A DNA stretch of 64,000 nt from Elusimicrobiaceae bacterium (GTDB lineage Bacteria; Elusimicrobiota; Elusimicrobia; Elusimicrobiales; Elusimicrobiaceae): the NCBI GenBank assembly GCA_017961585.1, contig JAGCWX010000020.1, positions 1-64,000 on the forward strand. The letters run 5' to 3'. The translations under genes and the position numbers were made by a program. The notes below the pieces were generated by a model. It saw only the letters and a list, made by a program, of their open reading frames with translations, was not told the DNA's origin and did no database searches. Shown here piece after piece: positions 371 through 62,791 of this stretch; position 1 is the first letter of the stretch, and every line of letters starts with the position of its first letter.

Positions 371-436
371 ATCCTAAACAACATCCGTGCGTTTTTCCAG
401 GGCCAAAAGGCCTATTGCAAATTAGGTCTTTGTACC
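371..436 (-). promoter_or_regulatory. Two-box promoter element A
   Basis: Read on the minus strand: distal box GGTACAAAGACC (425-436), 12 bp, proximal box GGCCTTTTGGCC (401-412), 24 bp beginning CTGG, then -10 hexamer TAGGAT (371-376). No -35 consensus is present. It drives the exported-protein gene starting at 354. It follows the full 12-12-12-24-6 spacing also seen at elements G, H, I and J. Confidence 0.8.
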
Positions 437-439
437 CAT

Positions 440-48367: not shown

Positions 48368-48369
48368 TA

Positions 48370-48435
48370 GGTACAAAGACCCACCTCTGCTTAGGTCCAA
48401 AGACCCTGGTTGTGTGAATAAAAACTTCCTATACT
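48370..48435 (+). promoter_or_regulatory. Two-box promoter element G
   Basis: Distal GGTACAAAGACC (48370-48381), 12 bp, proximal GGTCCAAAGACC (48394-48405), 24 bp starting CTGG, -10 TATACT (48430-48435). Full spacing rule; no -35. Confidence 0.85.
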
Positions 48436-49605: not shown

Positions 49606-49636
49606 GGCCTTTTTACCCCCTTTTTAAGCAATTATA

Positions 49637-49702
49637 GGCCTTTGGGCCTAGGAATGCCTAGGTCCAAAGACCCTGGAAATTTTCACGTGAAAACTTTAGA
49701 AT
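49637..49702 (+). promoter_or_regulatory. Two-box promoter element H
   Basis: Distal GGCCTTTGGGCC (49637-49648), 12 bp, proximal GGTCCAAAGACC (49661-49672), 24 bp starting CTGG, -10 TAGAAT (49697-49702). A TTTTCACGTGAAAA palindrome lies between proximal box and -10. Confidence 0.85.
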
Positions 49703-49737: not shown

Positions 49738-50466
49738 ATGCTTAAAAAAACACTTTTAGTTGCCATGCTCTTTGTGCTAGCCACTACTACGTTTGCACAA
49801 ACCCACCGACGTTCTGCCCGTCGTCACCACCCGCAGCAATCTATTGCCAATAACGTAACCCGCCGGGTAGCACAAACTACTCCCCGTCTATTCCGTTTAG
49901 ACGAACCTGGTTCATTTAACCGCAACAGTGAAGCTTGGTATATATGGAACAACATGTCCCAACCGGGAATTATCCTCCAAGATGCTATCATAGAATTTTA
50001 TAAAGAAACCGATGCAGGTCTAGCGGCTCGCAAAACCGCCGCCGCCCAAGCCAATTATCTAGCCGAAATGCTTGAAAAACATGACATGTTGGCTCAATAC
50101 AAGACGTATGTAAAAGGCCAGACCCAAGCTCTAACGGATCTTAAACTTGGGTTATTGGCGGAACAAAGTAATTCTTCTCCATCGTTGTGGGACATGTTTA
50201 TGCATTTCCCTGGTTTGTATCAAACCATTGCTTACTTCGCCAATCGTGGCAAAACCGTAGCACCTCAAGTACAATTGGAAGCAAAGAAGACGGAAATCTT
50301 TAAAGAAGGGAGTTTGTTGCTAGACCGTTTTGAAATAGCGGAAATGTACGATTTTATGCAAAAGAACAAGGCCCAACTCTCCAAGAAGAACCTCGCCGTA
50401 CTAACGAAATACAAATCCATGAGTGAGGATGGGCACCGCGCGCGCAAATACTTAATTAGTCTTTAA
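49738..50466 (+). CDS. Exported protein of unknown function
   Basis: A 242-residue protein with a signal peptide (LLVAMLFVLATTTFAQ), a basic His/Arg-rich stretch (THRRSARRHHPQQS) at the mature N-terminus and an otherwise helical body with no Cys. A GGAGG ribosome-binding site lies 6-7 bp before the ATG. It is monocistronic between element H and a convergent terminator. No family recognised. Confidence 0.7.
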   Translation: MLKKTLLVAMLFVLATTTFAQTHRRSARRHHPQQSIANNVTRRVAQTTPRLFRLDEPGSFNRNSEAWYIWNNMSQPGIILQDAIIEFYKETDAGLAARKTAAAQANYLAEMLEKHDMLAQYKTYVKGQTQALTDLKLGLLAEQSNSSPSLWDMFMHFPGLYQTIAYFANRGKTVAPQVQLEAKKTEIFKEGSLLLDRFEIAEMYDFMQKNKAQLSKKNLAVLTKYKSMSEDGHRARKYLISL

Positions 50467-54948: not shown

Positions 54949-54963
54949 ATGGAAAATTTCATA

Positions 54964-55029
54964 GGTCTTTAGGCCCAGATGACTTTGGGCCCAAAGGCCC
55001 TGGAAAGTGAGCTGTATTTACCATATACT
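54964..55029 (+). promoter_or_regulatory. Two-box promoter element I
   Basis: Distal GGTCTTTAGGCC (54964-54975), 12 bp, proximal GGCCCAAAGGCC (54988-54999), 24 bp starting CTGG, -10 TATACT (55024-55029). It drives the 1442-residue exported protein. Confidence 0.85.
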
Positions 55030-55084: not shown

Positions 55085-58000
55085 ATGAACCGTTTGATCA
55101 GCCGCTTGTTACTTGTTGTTTTTACGTTTAATTGTTTGCTTTTTACCCCGGGCGTTTCCTGGGGGCAGCAATTACCCCGCAATAATAATTCGTCTCCAAC
55201 ACAACGTTGGAATAATTTCCAATGGGGCCAACAAAATGTACAACAACCTTCTTGGACACAAGTAAGACCCAGTAATAATACTAATACCTCAAAACCCTCC
55301 TCTATCAATCCTCTTGCCAAAGCGTTAGCGGAAAAATTAGGGACTCAAACACCTTTAACACCGCAAGAGTTACAACAACGCGCGGCAGAGTTACGCAAAC
55401 CTTACGAAGAATCTTTTGAATACGAGGACATTGTGCAAAGCTCCTACGCGTTATATTCCCTCTATGTAGGACAAAACTATGCTGCACGCACGCTGAAAGA
55501 AGGTTTGGATTGGTTAAAAATTGACTCACAAAAAGGGGGCAGAGGCATTTATGCTAACAATAGCAATTTTGCCACGAAACGCAACCAAGCATTGGAAAGC
55601 ATCAAAGCCGGCAATATGGAAGGTGAGCAAATTTTAGATTTCATTGATCCTTTTGACCCTGTCAAACGCAACGATCTCAATGCTTTCTATGCCGCACAAT
55701 ATTTGACCGAAGTTTTAGCCGGTACCAACGCCATTTATCCCGGCTTGGAACAATTTTTACGCCATGCACAATTACGTATTTTGCATAGCATCCAACTGAC
55801 TAAAGATGAACCCCGTATGGACCCGCAACGGGCCCGCTTATTGGGGCAATTGGCCATTACTTATAGTTCTATACGCTTGAAATTTAAAAGCTTATACGGA
55901 AAAGACCCCATGGAAAATTTCAATGAGCACTATGCTTATGTGCAAAATACTAGCATTCCTGAAGTAGTGATTGGGGGTTCCCGTCTTGTAAGAAGAATTG
56001 ATGGAAGCGTCGTAGATGTGGACCATCATGAAGTAATTGATGACATAGAAGTAGTATATGAAAATACGGCAGAAGAAGATTATGAACAGCTTTCTAAAGA
56101 TGAATGGATCCGCAGACGTCTGATTGAAAAAATAACTGCCCTTAAAAAAGCAATTAGCGAAGATGAAAACACTCGTTATACGGCTAAAAAATTAGCGGAT
56201 ACGCTGGTAGCCCGCAACAAAACGCAAAACTTCTCTTTCGGTTCCGCGGCAGGAGATATTGCACGCGAATTTTTCCTTATCAATTTGCTTGTAGATGTCC
56301 TGGGTATTTTGGATAGTTTAATAGGGAATATGGTGGGGATGGACAAAATCACACAATTGCTTTCCTCTCCGAATATAGGGCCTTATCCAGCCCCCTCTGT
56401 TAGCTTATTAACGTTGGCCTCAACAACGGCAGAATATGACCTGATTGATCATCGTTTGTTGAACGTGCGCGAATTGATTAAATTATTGGATGCTGATAAA
56501 CTGGCTGAATCCAATCATGCCGGTACAGCTCCTGTATATTTAAATGATAACTTATATCAGGGAGTGCAACCGGCTATTGCAGAAGTATTTAATACGATCT
56601 ATGTATATGCCATTACCCCTGGCCGCTCTGCCCAAGAATGGAGCCAAATAATGGACTTACTTAAAGAATTAAGCGATCCGCATAAATACTCCATTATGGT
56701 ACGTTTGTGTGCCCTGTCCGTGGCGGCCAAATTGATTAGCTTGCGTCAACAAGCCCGCTACAGTCGTGATGTCTTGGGTGGAAACAGAGCTCAATATACC
56801 CCCAGCGAAATGCAACCCGAAATGGCCAACTATTCCTTGCCGTATGAAGATTTTGATAACATGACTTCCATTTACAGCATGCAAGCACGTCAAAATCCTA
56901 CGCAATCCAGAATGGTCCGCGAATATGAGTATTTCCGTCAAACGGGTAAAATGCCTTATAACTATGCAGATTTGATGTTGCAATACTTGATTGATTTGTA
57001 TTGGGAAATGACTGCCCCCGGTTCCGCCCATGGGATGCAATCTTATGGATTGGATGCCACACAAATGCAAGAAGTAGCCGCACAATTAGTAAAACTGTAT
57101 AACTACATTCAACCCGCAGCGGCCAATCAAGAACGCTACCCTGTGGTATTGCCTCCCGGTCAAGATCACATGGAACAAGTAACCGTTTCACAAACAACGG
57201 AAGATTACAACCACATTGATGTAAGAACTTCCACCAAAACGGTGCTGATTCACTACGGGGCTAAGGTAACTACCTCTACCGGCGTAACGGTATATATGAG
57301 CCAAACCCCTCCACTCAATTTAAACAAAAAAGTGGAAGATGGTCTTAACTTTATGAGTGAGTTTATGATGGATGTATTAACCTGGAAATTGCTCATCTCC
57401 ACCGTCCGCACGGGAATCCGCGCCGCCAAACCTCTCGTCAAATTGGTCAAAGACGGAAAACAGGTTAAATTAGGAATTAGAGAAGCATTCCGCGATGGAG
57501 GTAAATTCTCTTCGGAGCAGGCCCAACTTAATGCCCGTTACGTACTGCAGCATCCCGTTCCGCGAGTCACTAGCCGCGAAGAAGCTTTAAAATTCTTACG
57601 CCTTGGCCCGAAGGCAACCGAAGCAGAAATCAAACAAGCATTCCGCGAACTGTCTAAAAAATATCATCCGGATATGTTGCCCAAAACAACCGTACGCGGT
57701 GAAAAATACGTGAATGAACAGTTTGCCAACCTCTCAAATATAAGATCATTTGCGTTAGGTGAAAGAAACCCCAATTTAGTGATTAAACCCGGTACGCCAC
57801 GGGCTGTTACGGAAGCTGACAAAACCATGCCAATACCTTTAGTGGATGAGCAAGAACAAGCCCGTGCTGCGGCCAAAACTGCCCAACGTGTTGCCAGTGT
57901 GGAAGAAACGATGAACATCGCCGGCGGGTTTGCAACCTTCTATGCTCAAGATTATGTATTAGGTTACCCGGCTAACGCTGTAGAAGAAGAAGTAGGCAAC

Positions 58001-59413
58001 CGTACCGCTGCGCAAATCAACCAGGCCTACAATAACATTCCTACTGCCTCTGGCGAACGCTCGGAACAGCCGACCGGGTGGTTGGATGACGTGGCCGCCG
58101 ATGCGGAAACCGTACATCAAGGTGGTATCTTCCGCCTCCCCTTGGCCGCAGCTACCTTATTTGGGGATGATCTGTTCGGCCGGGATTACATTACCATAGA
58201 TACCCGCGCAAACATTGACTTGTTTGCCCAACGTGAGGCCTATGACAGAGCCGTCCAAGCCAATGATTTGGTCAAGTTCCAAAAACAAATGGACAAAGAA
58301 ATTGCTGCCATCAACAAGGAAAAAGAACAATTCTTAAAGAATTATAAAGTATTCCTGCAAGCTATCCCAAATGGTGAAAAAGAATTGAAGACGGTTTACC
58401 AAACCTATGTGCAGGGCCTCAATCGGGTGAAGAATATGGCCGCCCAAAACTTGCAAAAAGCCCAAGCCCAGCATGAAGAAGAAGCGACCAAATTCATCAA
58501 CACGCAAGCTGACCTTATGGTACGCTGTGTAAAGGCCTATACTGCCCAACAGATCCCGTTGAATATTGCGATGGATCAACAAGCTCTGCGGACGCAGTTC
58601 CCCTTCACCATGACGAAACAAATAGAAGAACAAATTAAAACCATTGTCACTCATTTCTTACGTCAAAGAGAACAAGGATTAATTGAGTTGTTTACTGCCT
58701 CCCAACGTGCTTTGCAAAACGAATCCCTCTCTGGGGAAAAATTGACCCAGCAGGCCTCGGATAAGTTGCAAAAAGCGCAACAGGAATACAACAAAAAAAT
58801 AGAAGATTTGCAGAAATCCTTGGCGAAAAAAGAGGGCATTGTACAAGCCCAAAAAGCACAAGAGTTTGTGGAAAAAGCAGTTGCATGGAAACAAGCGGCT
58901 TTGGATGGCGTTGTGGCGAAAATGGTAAAGAAAGCCGAATCTTTAGTGACCTCTTGGATTCAATTTGATGCCTATGCCGTGGAACAGTATAATGCGCTGC
59001 TCTCCCAATTCCAGGAAGAAGTGAACAATGCGTTCCTGACGACGATCACTCAAGAAGAGTTCAACAAGGCCTATGCCCAGGCAGAAGCCCGCTTGGATAA
59101 AGGATACCTGGAATTTACCAATAACTTGTGCAAACAAGGCAAAGGGCAAATTATCTTACTCCCACAAGCGGTTGCCCTTTATAGTCAAAAAGCAGATAAA
59201 TTCTATATGGATAACAATCAAGAACTATCCCCTATGGAAAAAGAGTTATTCCAAGCATTCAATGATGACTTAACCAACGCTGCTTATACAGCTACTTCAA
59301 AGGCAGATTTTGACAAACGTGTCAAAGAGGCGGAAAAACTCTTGGATCAAGGGCTCCAAAAAGCAAAGGAAATTGCCCCTAATCAAACCGTCCAACCGAT
59401 TATGTATCATTAG
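55085..59413 (+). CDS. Giant exported protein with an internal J-domain
   Basis: A 1442-residue protein with a signal peptide (LISRLLLVVFTFNCLLFTPG, cleavage near VSWG/Q) and an Asn/Gln-rich mature start. Residues about 100-800 form a helical region of unknown type with a short hydrophobic patch (LLVDVLGILDSLIGNMVGM, about 398-416). Residues about 828-890 form a DnaJ-like J-domain: ATEAEIKQAFRELSKKY followed by HPD at 861-863. From about 1060 to the end the protein is strongly helical, Gln/Lys/Glu-rich and probably coiled coil. J-domains normally recruit cytoplasmic Hsp70, so one in an exported protein is unexpected. Monocistronic. Confidence 0.75.
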   Translation: MNRLISRLLLVVFTFNCLLFTPGVSWGQQLPRNNNSSPTQRWNNFQWGQQNVQQPSWTQVRPSNNTNTSKPSSINPLAKALAEKLGTQTPLTPQELQQRAAELRKPYEESFEYEDIVQSSYALYSLYVGQNYAARTLKEGLDWLKIDSQKGGRGIYANNSNFATKRNQALESIKAGNMEGEQILDFIDPFDPVKRNDLNAFYAAQYLTEVLAGTNAIYPGLEQFLRHAQLRILHSIQLTKDEPRMDPQRARLLGQLAITYSSIRLKFKSLYGKDPMENFNEHYAYVQNTSIPEVVIGGSRLVRRIDGSVVDVDHHEVIDDIEVVYENTAEEDYEQLSKDEWIRRRLIEKITALKKAISEDENTRYTAKKLADTLVARNKTQNFSFGSAAGDIAREFFLINLLVDVLGILDSLIGNMVGMDKITQLLSSPNIGPYPAPSVSLLTLASTTAEYDLIDHRLLNVRELIKLLDADKLAESNHAGTAPVYLNDNLYQGVQPAIAEVFNTIYVYAITPGRSAQEWSQIMDLLKELSDPHKYSIMVRLCALSVAAKLISLRQQARYSRDVLGGNRAQYTPSEMQPEMANYSLPYEDFDNMTSIYSMQARQNPTQSRMVREYEYFRQTGKMPYNYADLMLQYLIDLYWEMTAPGSAHGMQSYGLDATQMQEVAAQLVKLYNYIQPAAANQERYPVVLPPGQDHMEQVTVSQTTEDYNHIDVRTSTKTVLIHYGAKVTTSTGVTVYMSQTPPLNLNKKVEDGLNFMSEFMMDVLTWKLLISTVRTGIRAAKPLVKLVKDGKQVKLGIREAFRDGGKFSSEQAQLNARYVLQHPVPRVTSREEALKFLRLGPKATEAEIKQAFRELSKKYHPDMLPKTTVRGEKYVNEQFANLSNIRSFALGERNPNLVIKPGTPRAVTEADKTMPIPLVDEQEQARAAAKTAQRVASVEETMNIAGGFATFYAQDYVLGYPANAVEEEVGNRTAAQINQAYNNIPTASGERSEQPTGWLDDVAADAETVHQGGIFRLPLAAATLFGDDLFGRDYITIDTRANIDLFAQREAYDRAVQANDLVKFQKQMDKEIAAINKEKEQFLKNYKVFLQAIPNGEKELKTVYQTYVQGLNRVKNMAAQNLQKAQAQHEEEATKFINTQADLMVRCVKAYTAQQIPLNIAMDQQALRTQFPFTMTKQIEEQIKTIVTHFLRQREQGLIELFTASQRALQNESLSGEKLTQQASDKLQKAQQEYNKKIEDLQKSLAKKEGIVQAQKAQEFVEKAVAWKQAALDGVVAKMVKKAESLVTSWIQFDAYAVEQYNALLSQFQEEVNNAFLTTITQEEFNKAYAQAEARLDKGYLEFTNNLCKQGKGQIILLPQAVALYSQKADKFYMDNNQELSPMEKELFQAFNDDLTNAAYTATSKADFDKRVKEAEKLLDQGLQKAKEIAPNQTVQPIMYH

Positions 59414-61101: not shown

Positions 61102-62673
61102 CTAACGGCTCCAACCGTGCAGATTTTTGTAATAGTAGTAGTTCTTCATCTGACGTAAATATTGGATATACCCGTAAGAACCGTTGTTTAAATTGTTGTT
61201 ATACCACATATATCCGTCCAACCCGGCGTGGAAATAATCTTCGGTAGTGAGCACCTCTTTGCCGGACTCAGTTTTAATTACATCCCCGTCGTTGGGTTCA
61301 AACTTACTGGAGGCAATTACCGCCACGTTTGGATCCAACCGGCGCAGCTCTTCCATCATGGCAATTCCCCCTTCTGGGACTAACAGATCTGTAATAACCA
61401 AGTCATATTGGGAGCCGGAACGCACCCGATTTAAAAAAGTTCTTCCTTCGGAAAAAGTTTCCACTCTGGCCCCTTTGCCCAAAAGCCCTTTTTTGCCCCA
61501 TGCTTCAAAATTGAGACGAGGGTTCAAATCGTCATTAATGAAGGCAATGTGTAAATTTTCGGGGATGTGTGTTAATAATTCATCTGCCTCATCGGTAAAT
61601 TTCATCATAGCGGCGTCGTGCGCACGTTCCGCAGCACGCTGTGCCATTTTCTGCTCGGCAGACATAGCGGTTGTATAGTCCTCTTCATCATACTCATCTT
61701 CCCAATCGGCGTCTTGTTCGCCGGCAATCATAGTGGACGACCCGGGCAAATATGGGGAGGAATGGTCCGGATTATAAAGAATAAATTCGTGCACATTGTA
61801 GATTCTATGATCCGGACGAGAAATTCTTAAGCTCGTCAGCACCCCCTTTAACATAGGGACATAAGCCGCACGCATTTGATCCCAATATTGCTGTTGAGCC
61901 ATGATAAAAGGATCCTTAATAAAAGCATTGCGCAATTTTAAGACGTCAGTAGTCATTTTATAGATAAAACTATTGATGCGCGTGCGATCCCCAAATTCAA
62001 GGGCATAATCCTCACTTGCAAAATAACCGAGCCGGCTTATGAGATAGGAATTTATCTCTTTAGAATTAATAATAAAGTCCTCATATTCCTTAGACAACGA
62101 TTTCCACGTTTCCATGGGCACTTCGTGCGTGAGGTAACCAAAACGTAACGAAGGTGGAGTAACTTCCATTTTCCGCCAAAGGTATCCCAAAGTTTCTCTG
62201 GATTCTTTCCATGGGACACGATCACGCCATGAACCAATGAGATATCCTTTATCATAATCAAACCCTGTACGTTTAATGGCCAATTCCACATCCATTCCGC
62301 TTTTGATAGCATCGGAACTGGCATAGGCAAGCGTACCAGAAGGCATAATGGAATGGCGCTTATTCGCACTTGAAGCCGACGTGGAAATAGCTACCCGCCG
62401 TTCCAAATCCACCCCGGTTCTTTCCAGGAAAAAATTCCGTTTTTCGTTAGCATCCCAATTCAAATTTTCCAGCAATATAGGTTCACGTTTGGTTGAATTT
62501 TTTAATTTATAAGATTTTTTGATTCTCCCAAAGGTTTTGCGAGGGGCTCTTGTTGTGTATGATTTTTTAAATTTAAACTTCCGAGGTTTGGGGAGCACGG
62601 CTTCTGCATTTAACAAATTCCCACCTATCACCAAACACATCACGATTGCGAACCAACGGACGATTGTATGCAT
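61102..62673 (-). CDS. Exported protein with receiver-like (response-regulator) domain
   Basis: A 523-residue protein with a signal peptide (TIVRWFAIVMCLVIGGNLLNAEA) and a basic Lys/Arg-rich segment (30-65). A helical region of about 240 residues precedes an acidic linker (DADWEDEYDEED). The C-terminal domain, about 374-495, follows the receiver plan: acidic pair D381-D382 in FINDDLN, phospho-acceptor-like D429 in YDLVITDL, Ser455 in VIASS, and AGLDGYMW in the place of the usual AGADGYLxKP, where the conserved Lys is lost. Receiver domains are cytoplasmic in known systems. No histidine kinase is nearby. It is driven by element J. Confidence 0.7.
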   Translation of the reverse strand: MHTIVRWFAIVMCLVIGGNLLNAEAVLPKPRKFKFKKSYTTRAPRKTFGRIKKSYKLKNSTKREPILLENLNWDANEKRNFFLERTGVDLERRVAISTSASSANKRHSIMPSGTLAYASSDAIKSGMDVELAIKRTGFDYDKGYLIGSWRDRVPWKESRETLGYLWRKMEVTPPSLRFGYLTHEVPMETWKSLSKEYEDFIINSKEINSYLISRLGYFASEDYALEFGDRTRINSFIYKMTTDVLKLRNAFIKDPFIMAQQQYWDQMRAAYVPMLKGVLTSLRISRPDHRIYNVHEFILYNPDHSSPYLPGSSTMIAGEQDADWEDEYDEEDYTTAMSAEQKMAQRAAERAHDAAMMKFTDEADELLTHIPENLHIAFINDDLNPRLNFEAWGKKGLLGKGARVETFSEGRTFLNRVRSGSQYDLVITDLLVPEGGIAMMEELRRLDPNVAVIASSKFEPNDGDVIKTESGKEVLTTEDYFHAGLDGYMWYNNNLNNGSYGYIQYLRQMKNYYYYKNLHGWSR

Positions 62674-62706: not shown

Positions 62707-62772
62707 AGTTTACCACAATTGCTTCCTACACGCCAGGGTCTAAAGGCCCAACTGTGTATAGGTCTTTTTACC
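62707..62772 (-). promoter_or_regulatory. Two-box promoter element J
   Basis: Minus strand: distal GGTAAAAAGACC (62761-62772), 12 bp, proximal GGCCTTTAGACC (62737-62748), 24 bp starting CTGG, -10 TAAACT (62707-62712). Full spacing rule. Confidence 0.85.
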
Positions 62773-62791
62773 TATTTAGCGTAATTTTTTA

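Follow-up and report, generated by a model that had tools for sequence, protein, structure and literature searches.

The window analysed here is a stretch of 64,000 nucleotides (positions 1 to 64,000 of contig JAGCWX010000020.1, assembly GCA_017961585.1, from an Elusimicrobiaceae bacterium), and we have mainly focused on a gene for a 1442-residue protein (P0001) in which a signal peptide and a J-domain occur together. The features of this gene and of its companions are as follows, with the kind of evidence in brackets.

54962..55003, + strand: twin-palindrome promoter element of P0001, TAGGTCTTTAGGCCC-N9-TGGGCCCAAAGGCCCTGG, with a TATACT-like -10 after it (genome pattern search)
55085..59413, + strand: P0001, a predicted 1442-aa exported J-domain protein (ORF and Pfam)
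55085..55165, + strand: predicted signal peptide of P0001, residues 1-27, MNRLISRLLLVVFTFNCLLFTPGVSWG^QQ (SPase I-like site in homologues; conservation)
55562..57124, + strand: helical N-terminal half, residues ~160-680, a HEAT/ARM-like solenoid in the model (model, structure comparison)
56258..56335, + strand: hydrophobic segment peculiar to P0001, residues 392-417 (hydropathy, homologue comparison)
57320..57454, + strand: long helix, residues 746-790, corresponding to the family 'FWIYGGEIF' helix, marginally hydrophobic with a basic C-flank (dG survey, model)
57578..57739, + strand: J-domain of P0001, helices I-III, residues 832-885 (Pfam, J-HMM, model, alignment)
57665..57673, + strand: HPD motif, residues 861-863 (sequence, alignment)
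58196..59410, + strand: C-terminal long helices or coiled-coil-like region, residues ~1038-1442 (model up to residue 1226)
61102..62673, - strand: exported-type protein of 523 aa with a C-terminal pseudo-receiver domain, in the promoter class of P0001 (Pfam, family search, alignment)
62733..62774, - strand: twin-palindrome promoter element of the pseudo-receiver gene (genome pattern search)
397-438 (-), 48368-48409 (+) and 49635-49676 (+): other twin-palindrome elements of the window (pattern search)

A first-pass annotation, made from the letters of the window, had described a frame of 1442 residues with an HPD motif at 861-863 as part of a J-domain in mid-protein, and its coordinates, length and motif position proved exact. 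The only Pfam family found in P0001 at E ≤ 1 is DnaJ (PF00226), at residues 836-874 (E=6.1e-8), and since its 33.1 bits lie above the gathering score of 27.8, the match is not due to chance. A J-domain profile built without P0001 (the J-HMM) still detects the domain (E=1.5e-10), and a chance HPD is ruled out by the E-values of the two profiles. An assembly fusion is ruled out as the origin of P0001 because other genomes have the same architecture. The Pfam match spans profile positions 4-42 of 63, i.e., helices I-III only, so that the 3' end of the P0001 J-domain is either truncated or divergent. The G/F region, Zn-finger and substrate-binding C-terminal domains of class A/B DnaJ were not found in P0001 by Pfam at E ≤ 1, and the scores against NCBIfam DnaJ equivalogs are far under cut-off. 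The mycoplasma terminal-organelle J-protein TopJ (NF037946), which is cytosolic, gives a weak match (E=9e-5) that lies within the J-domain and whose 21.1 bits fall far short of the cut-off (300).

A Foldseek search with the structure model of P0001 gave no match at E ≤ 0.001, and a J-domain did not surface in the second VIA comparison of this model, whose list was filled by helical repeats; the evidence for a J-fold therefore rests on the relative L091. The model of L091 (mean pLDDT 78.7 from 29 sequences, good for its size) leads from a helical N-terminal half through a small beta region, a long helix and a second beta region to a four-helix J-domain, which is followed by long helices. In VIA comparisons this J-domain resembles those of CbpA (Z 11.7, 2.5 A over 72 residues) and of DnaJ bound to DnaK (Z 8.4), and a search of a viral structure library gave J-domains as its confident matches. 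The P0001 model is weaker (mean pLDDT 64.4). In it, helices I-III of the J-domain are modelled at modest confidence (pLDDT of about 50-75 in blocks of ten residues) and helix IV was not seen. For the N-terminal half, VIA shows a likeness to HEAT/ARM proteins (Z of 10.3 at best, with an rmsd of 6.2 over 209 residues), which may mean only a common arrangement since helical repeats readily obtain high scores. The long helices modelled from residue ~1038 to 1226 agree with the coiled-coil-like C-terminus annotated earlier.

Using blast and profile searches, relatives of P0001 were found in 48 of the 66 genomes of the window's own Elusimicrobiaceae genus and in none of the 275 genomes searched elsewhere in the phylum; a scan of genome contigs with P0001 as the sole query gave no match. 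The members are about 1.05-2.44 kaa long, and the family is fast-evolving and, judged from its sequences, of exported type. Most of its genes are flanked by a phoH-like gene on one side and by two oppositely oriented genes on the other, these neighbour names being an impression from sequence. P0001 and its relatives in four genomes (G003, G015, G020 and G031) adjoin yggS instead, tig being their opposite neighbour on contigs that are long enough, and no family copy at the phoH-like location was found in the window's genome. One family gene (L034, G031:C39) seems split into ORFs of 1134 and 366 aa; either the copy is broken or the assembly may be wrong here.

The J-HMM finds a J-domain in 18 family members including P0001, and a truncated J remnant in one further member (L096_4467). 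In all of the 18 except P0001 the domain is at a common place, which in most follows the conserved block FxYWxxxxxGWxRI...EF. When these 18 domains are aligned in the numbering of E. coli DnaJ, all of them have D35, 17 have P34 and 16 have H33; the HPD is thus intact in 15, with APD in two G011 copies and HTD in one from G034, and the doubt raised beforehand about its conservation in homologues is settled in favor of the motif. The basic DnaK-contact positions are mostly kept, K or R standing at position 22 in 15/18 and at position 26 in 15/18, and position 25 is Y or F in 17/18. Mean identity is 34% in the J-domain and 24% in the region preceding it. Like class C J-proteins (DnaJ/CbpA-type J, PF00226), the P0001 J-domain has the HPD and the basic helix II, and the J-fold is seen in the model of L091; the P0001 domain differs from them in being of exported type, in lying mid-chain in a giant solenoid-type protein and in matching over helices I-III only. 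From these residues it looks like a genuine J module of class C type that selection has maintained for contact with Hsp70. Many orthologues are without a J-domain, some of them long (1.6-1.8 kaa). On a maximum-likelihood tree, where P0001 forms a long branch of unsure placement, the presence or absence of the J-domain requires 8 changes, and well-supported branches force no fewer than 5 of these; position and motif suggest one origin of the domain with repeated loss. In one locus (L090, G011:C4) three family members stand in tandem, and in two of them APD replaces HPD.

The signal peptide, which the first-pass annotation had also proposed, ends in P0001 at an SPase I-like site S-W-G (SWG^QQ), and a signal-peptidase-like site is present in all 47 of the N-terminally complete family members by a pattern rule rather than a dedicated signal-peptide predictor. 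A stricter but crude heuristic fails to pick up P0001, owing to N and T in the core of its signal peptide. Compared with 17 relatives, P0001 has 42% identity in the signal peptide and 19% in the remaining protein. F13, N16 and P20 are near-invariant in family signal peptides, an unusual degree of conservation that may point to a dedicated route, receptor or sorting signal. A twin-Arg is absent from the P0001 signal peptide, and therefore Sec rather than Tat is expected to serve for the presumed export of P0001. Orthologues without the J-domain have the same kind of signal peptide, so the J-domain is not required for export as such.

A J-domain is commonly read as a sign that Hsp70 is at work, and bacterial Hsp70 is taken as cytosolic. 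PMC3486835 describes J-proteins as obligate cochaperone partners of Hsp70, and PMC1906734 describes J-domains from the ER and from parasites as able to work with DnaK. The window's genome has one DnaK (start MAKIIGIDLG) without a signal peptide. An Hsp70 search of the 66 genomes gave one DnaK each (in pieces in some drafts) and an MreB-size match, with the single exception of G007, where the sole extra Hsp70-like protein of the genus is found (847-aa open frame, E=5e-56, G007:C1:330138-331226) and where the family member has no J-domain. None of the genomes that hold a J-bearing member yielded an additional full Hsp70, some of these being incomplete drafts with DnaK in pieces. A second, exported Hsp70 was considered as the partner and ruled out on this search. 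The paradox of an exported J-domain with no exported Hsp70, pointed out at first for P0001, holds across the genus, where it is real because both the HPD and the SPase-like site are conserved in relatives.

Because the only Hsp70 seen in the genome is the cytosolic DnaK, the J-domain is likely to work on the cytosolic side. The reading we prefer, at a probability of roughly 35%, is that it meets DnaK on the P0001 precursor before or during Sec export. Acting in cis, the J-domain would capture DnaK for the long precursor that carries it; the capture would precede or accompany SecA-driven translocation and keep the chain export-competent, and the J-domain would afterwards leave with the mature protein and be silent outside. 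Export itself, the binding of DnaK, the role in cis and its timing are what we infer. Tentatively, and at rather low odds, the family may represent an exported protein with a built-in export cochaperone, whose own J-domain recruits DnaK in cis for Sec export as a property conserved in the genus, together with the unusually well conserved signal peptide and a promoter class that serves exported proteins. To our knowledge, no Sec substrate with a built-in J-domain serving its own export is known. The many J-less orthologues, the APD and HTD variants and the truncated, long-branch J-domain of P0001 all stand against a role of the J-domain in export in cis.

Another way to bring the HPD beside the sole Hsp70 would be a type I topology, in which the N-terminal solenoid with the signal peptide is outside, transfer is halted by a helix preceding the J-domain, and this domain recruits DnaK at the cytosolic membrane face. 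An unusual topology had been suggested before, with attention to residues 398-416. The hydrophobic segment there (~392-416, KD up to 2.0) has no counterpart in homologues, so a topology switch at this place is unsupported and was ruled out; a different, conserved marginal helix followed by a basic stretch leaves room for the general idea. Most J-bearing members have this hydrophobic helix in the part that separates the J-domain from the signal peptide (predicted dG about 0 to 2), and the 40 residues after it carry 5-11 K/R and usually 0-1 D/E, much like a stop-transfer sequence. However, the helix is only marginally hydrophobic, usually with a conserved Glu, the same helix is also present in J-less members, and in P0001 and L091 it is a poor membrane segment (dG >2) modelled as one long helix, and we think a stop-transfer role somewhat unlikely. 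If the topology is right, P0001 would be comparable to DjlA-type proteins in bringing its J-domain together with DnaK at the membrane. DjlA is membrane-anchored with its J-domain in the cytosol; unlike DjlA, P0001 has a cleavable-type signal peptide and then about 800 residues before the J-domain, and the sole candidate for an anchor in its family is the marginal helix with basic flank.

Literature on Elusimicrobiota DnaJ and on periplasmic J-domains was searched, and no described case was among the papers listed. J-domains in exported proteins are known from HopI1 of P. syringae and from Plasmodium PFA0660w, to whose J-domain the L091 J model is similar (Z 9.8). Unlike these two, P0001 has a Sec signal peptide and an unrelated remainder, and a role on host Hsp70 is here only hypothetical. 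Action outside on a foreign Hsp70 (of an animal gut cell, a rumen protist or another microbe), in the manner of J-domain effectors, would fit with the fast evolution of the family and with the rumen or gut samples from which several of its genomes come, judged by their titles, and PMC6802931 describes bacterial J-domain effectors in Pseudomonas syringae. We consider this quite improbable, since the protein is very large and has only a Sec signal.

The companion protein of 523 aa has relatives in 42 of the 66 genomes, often in tandem (L166-L192). In the alignment of their receiver domains the acceptor Asp is kept and the lysine corresponding to CheY K109 is missing. The earlier view that two cytoplasmic-type domains occur in one exported set is right and can be carried further, the receiver belonging to a genus-wide pseudo-receiver family. 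This loss of the catalytic Lys with the fold kept lends some support to the explanation that the J-fold, too, is a mere helical module of a secreted structural protein and is independent of Hsp70. The altered HPD in 3 of the 18 J-domains (two APD, one HTD), the repeated switching of J-domain presence on the tree and the truncated remnant in L096_4467 point in the same direction. On the other hand, the HPD and the basic helix-II contacts are kept far above background identity, and we know of no reason for a scaffold to keep them. The suggestion of a scaffold without an Hsp70 partner, made in the first-pass annotation, is weakened because Hsp70-contact residues are kept while the remaining protein diverges, and we think it somewhat unlikely. 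Whether capture of DnaK on the precursor or another reading is right, a genus-wide exported family that keeps the HPD without an exported Hsp70 makes a J-domain role outside or en route directly testable.

P0001 and the exported receiver were also said to have the same type of promoter, and the twin palindrome is indeed upstream of both genes. The element is composed of a pair of GGnCyWWWrGnCC palindromes whose starts lie 24 bp apart, and the pattern has 14 hits in the window's genome (G000) versus 0 for a reversed-pattern control; most family genes in other genomes carry the same upstream architecture. The starts of the 12 readable genes downstream of the elements, including the ORF at 49738, resemble signal peptides by eye, and a crude signal-peptide heuristic accepts 9 of these 12 versus 16 of 46 window ORFs, so that an enrichment of signal peptides behind the elements is suggestive. 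The promoter class of P0001 is thus common to about a dozen exported-type proteins. The same kind of element is upstream of a 2.16-kaa exported-type protein that ends in a pseudo-receiver domain in G014 and G043. Together with the pseudo-receivers, the shared promoter class suggests that gut Elusimicrobiota have an entire, as yet uncharacterised set of exported proteins. Pfam searches of other members of the promoter group gave nothing useful except a trypsin-like peptidase match of 26.3 bits, below the cut-off of 27.6, in one member (L162:2792-3856, - strand).
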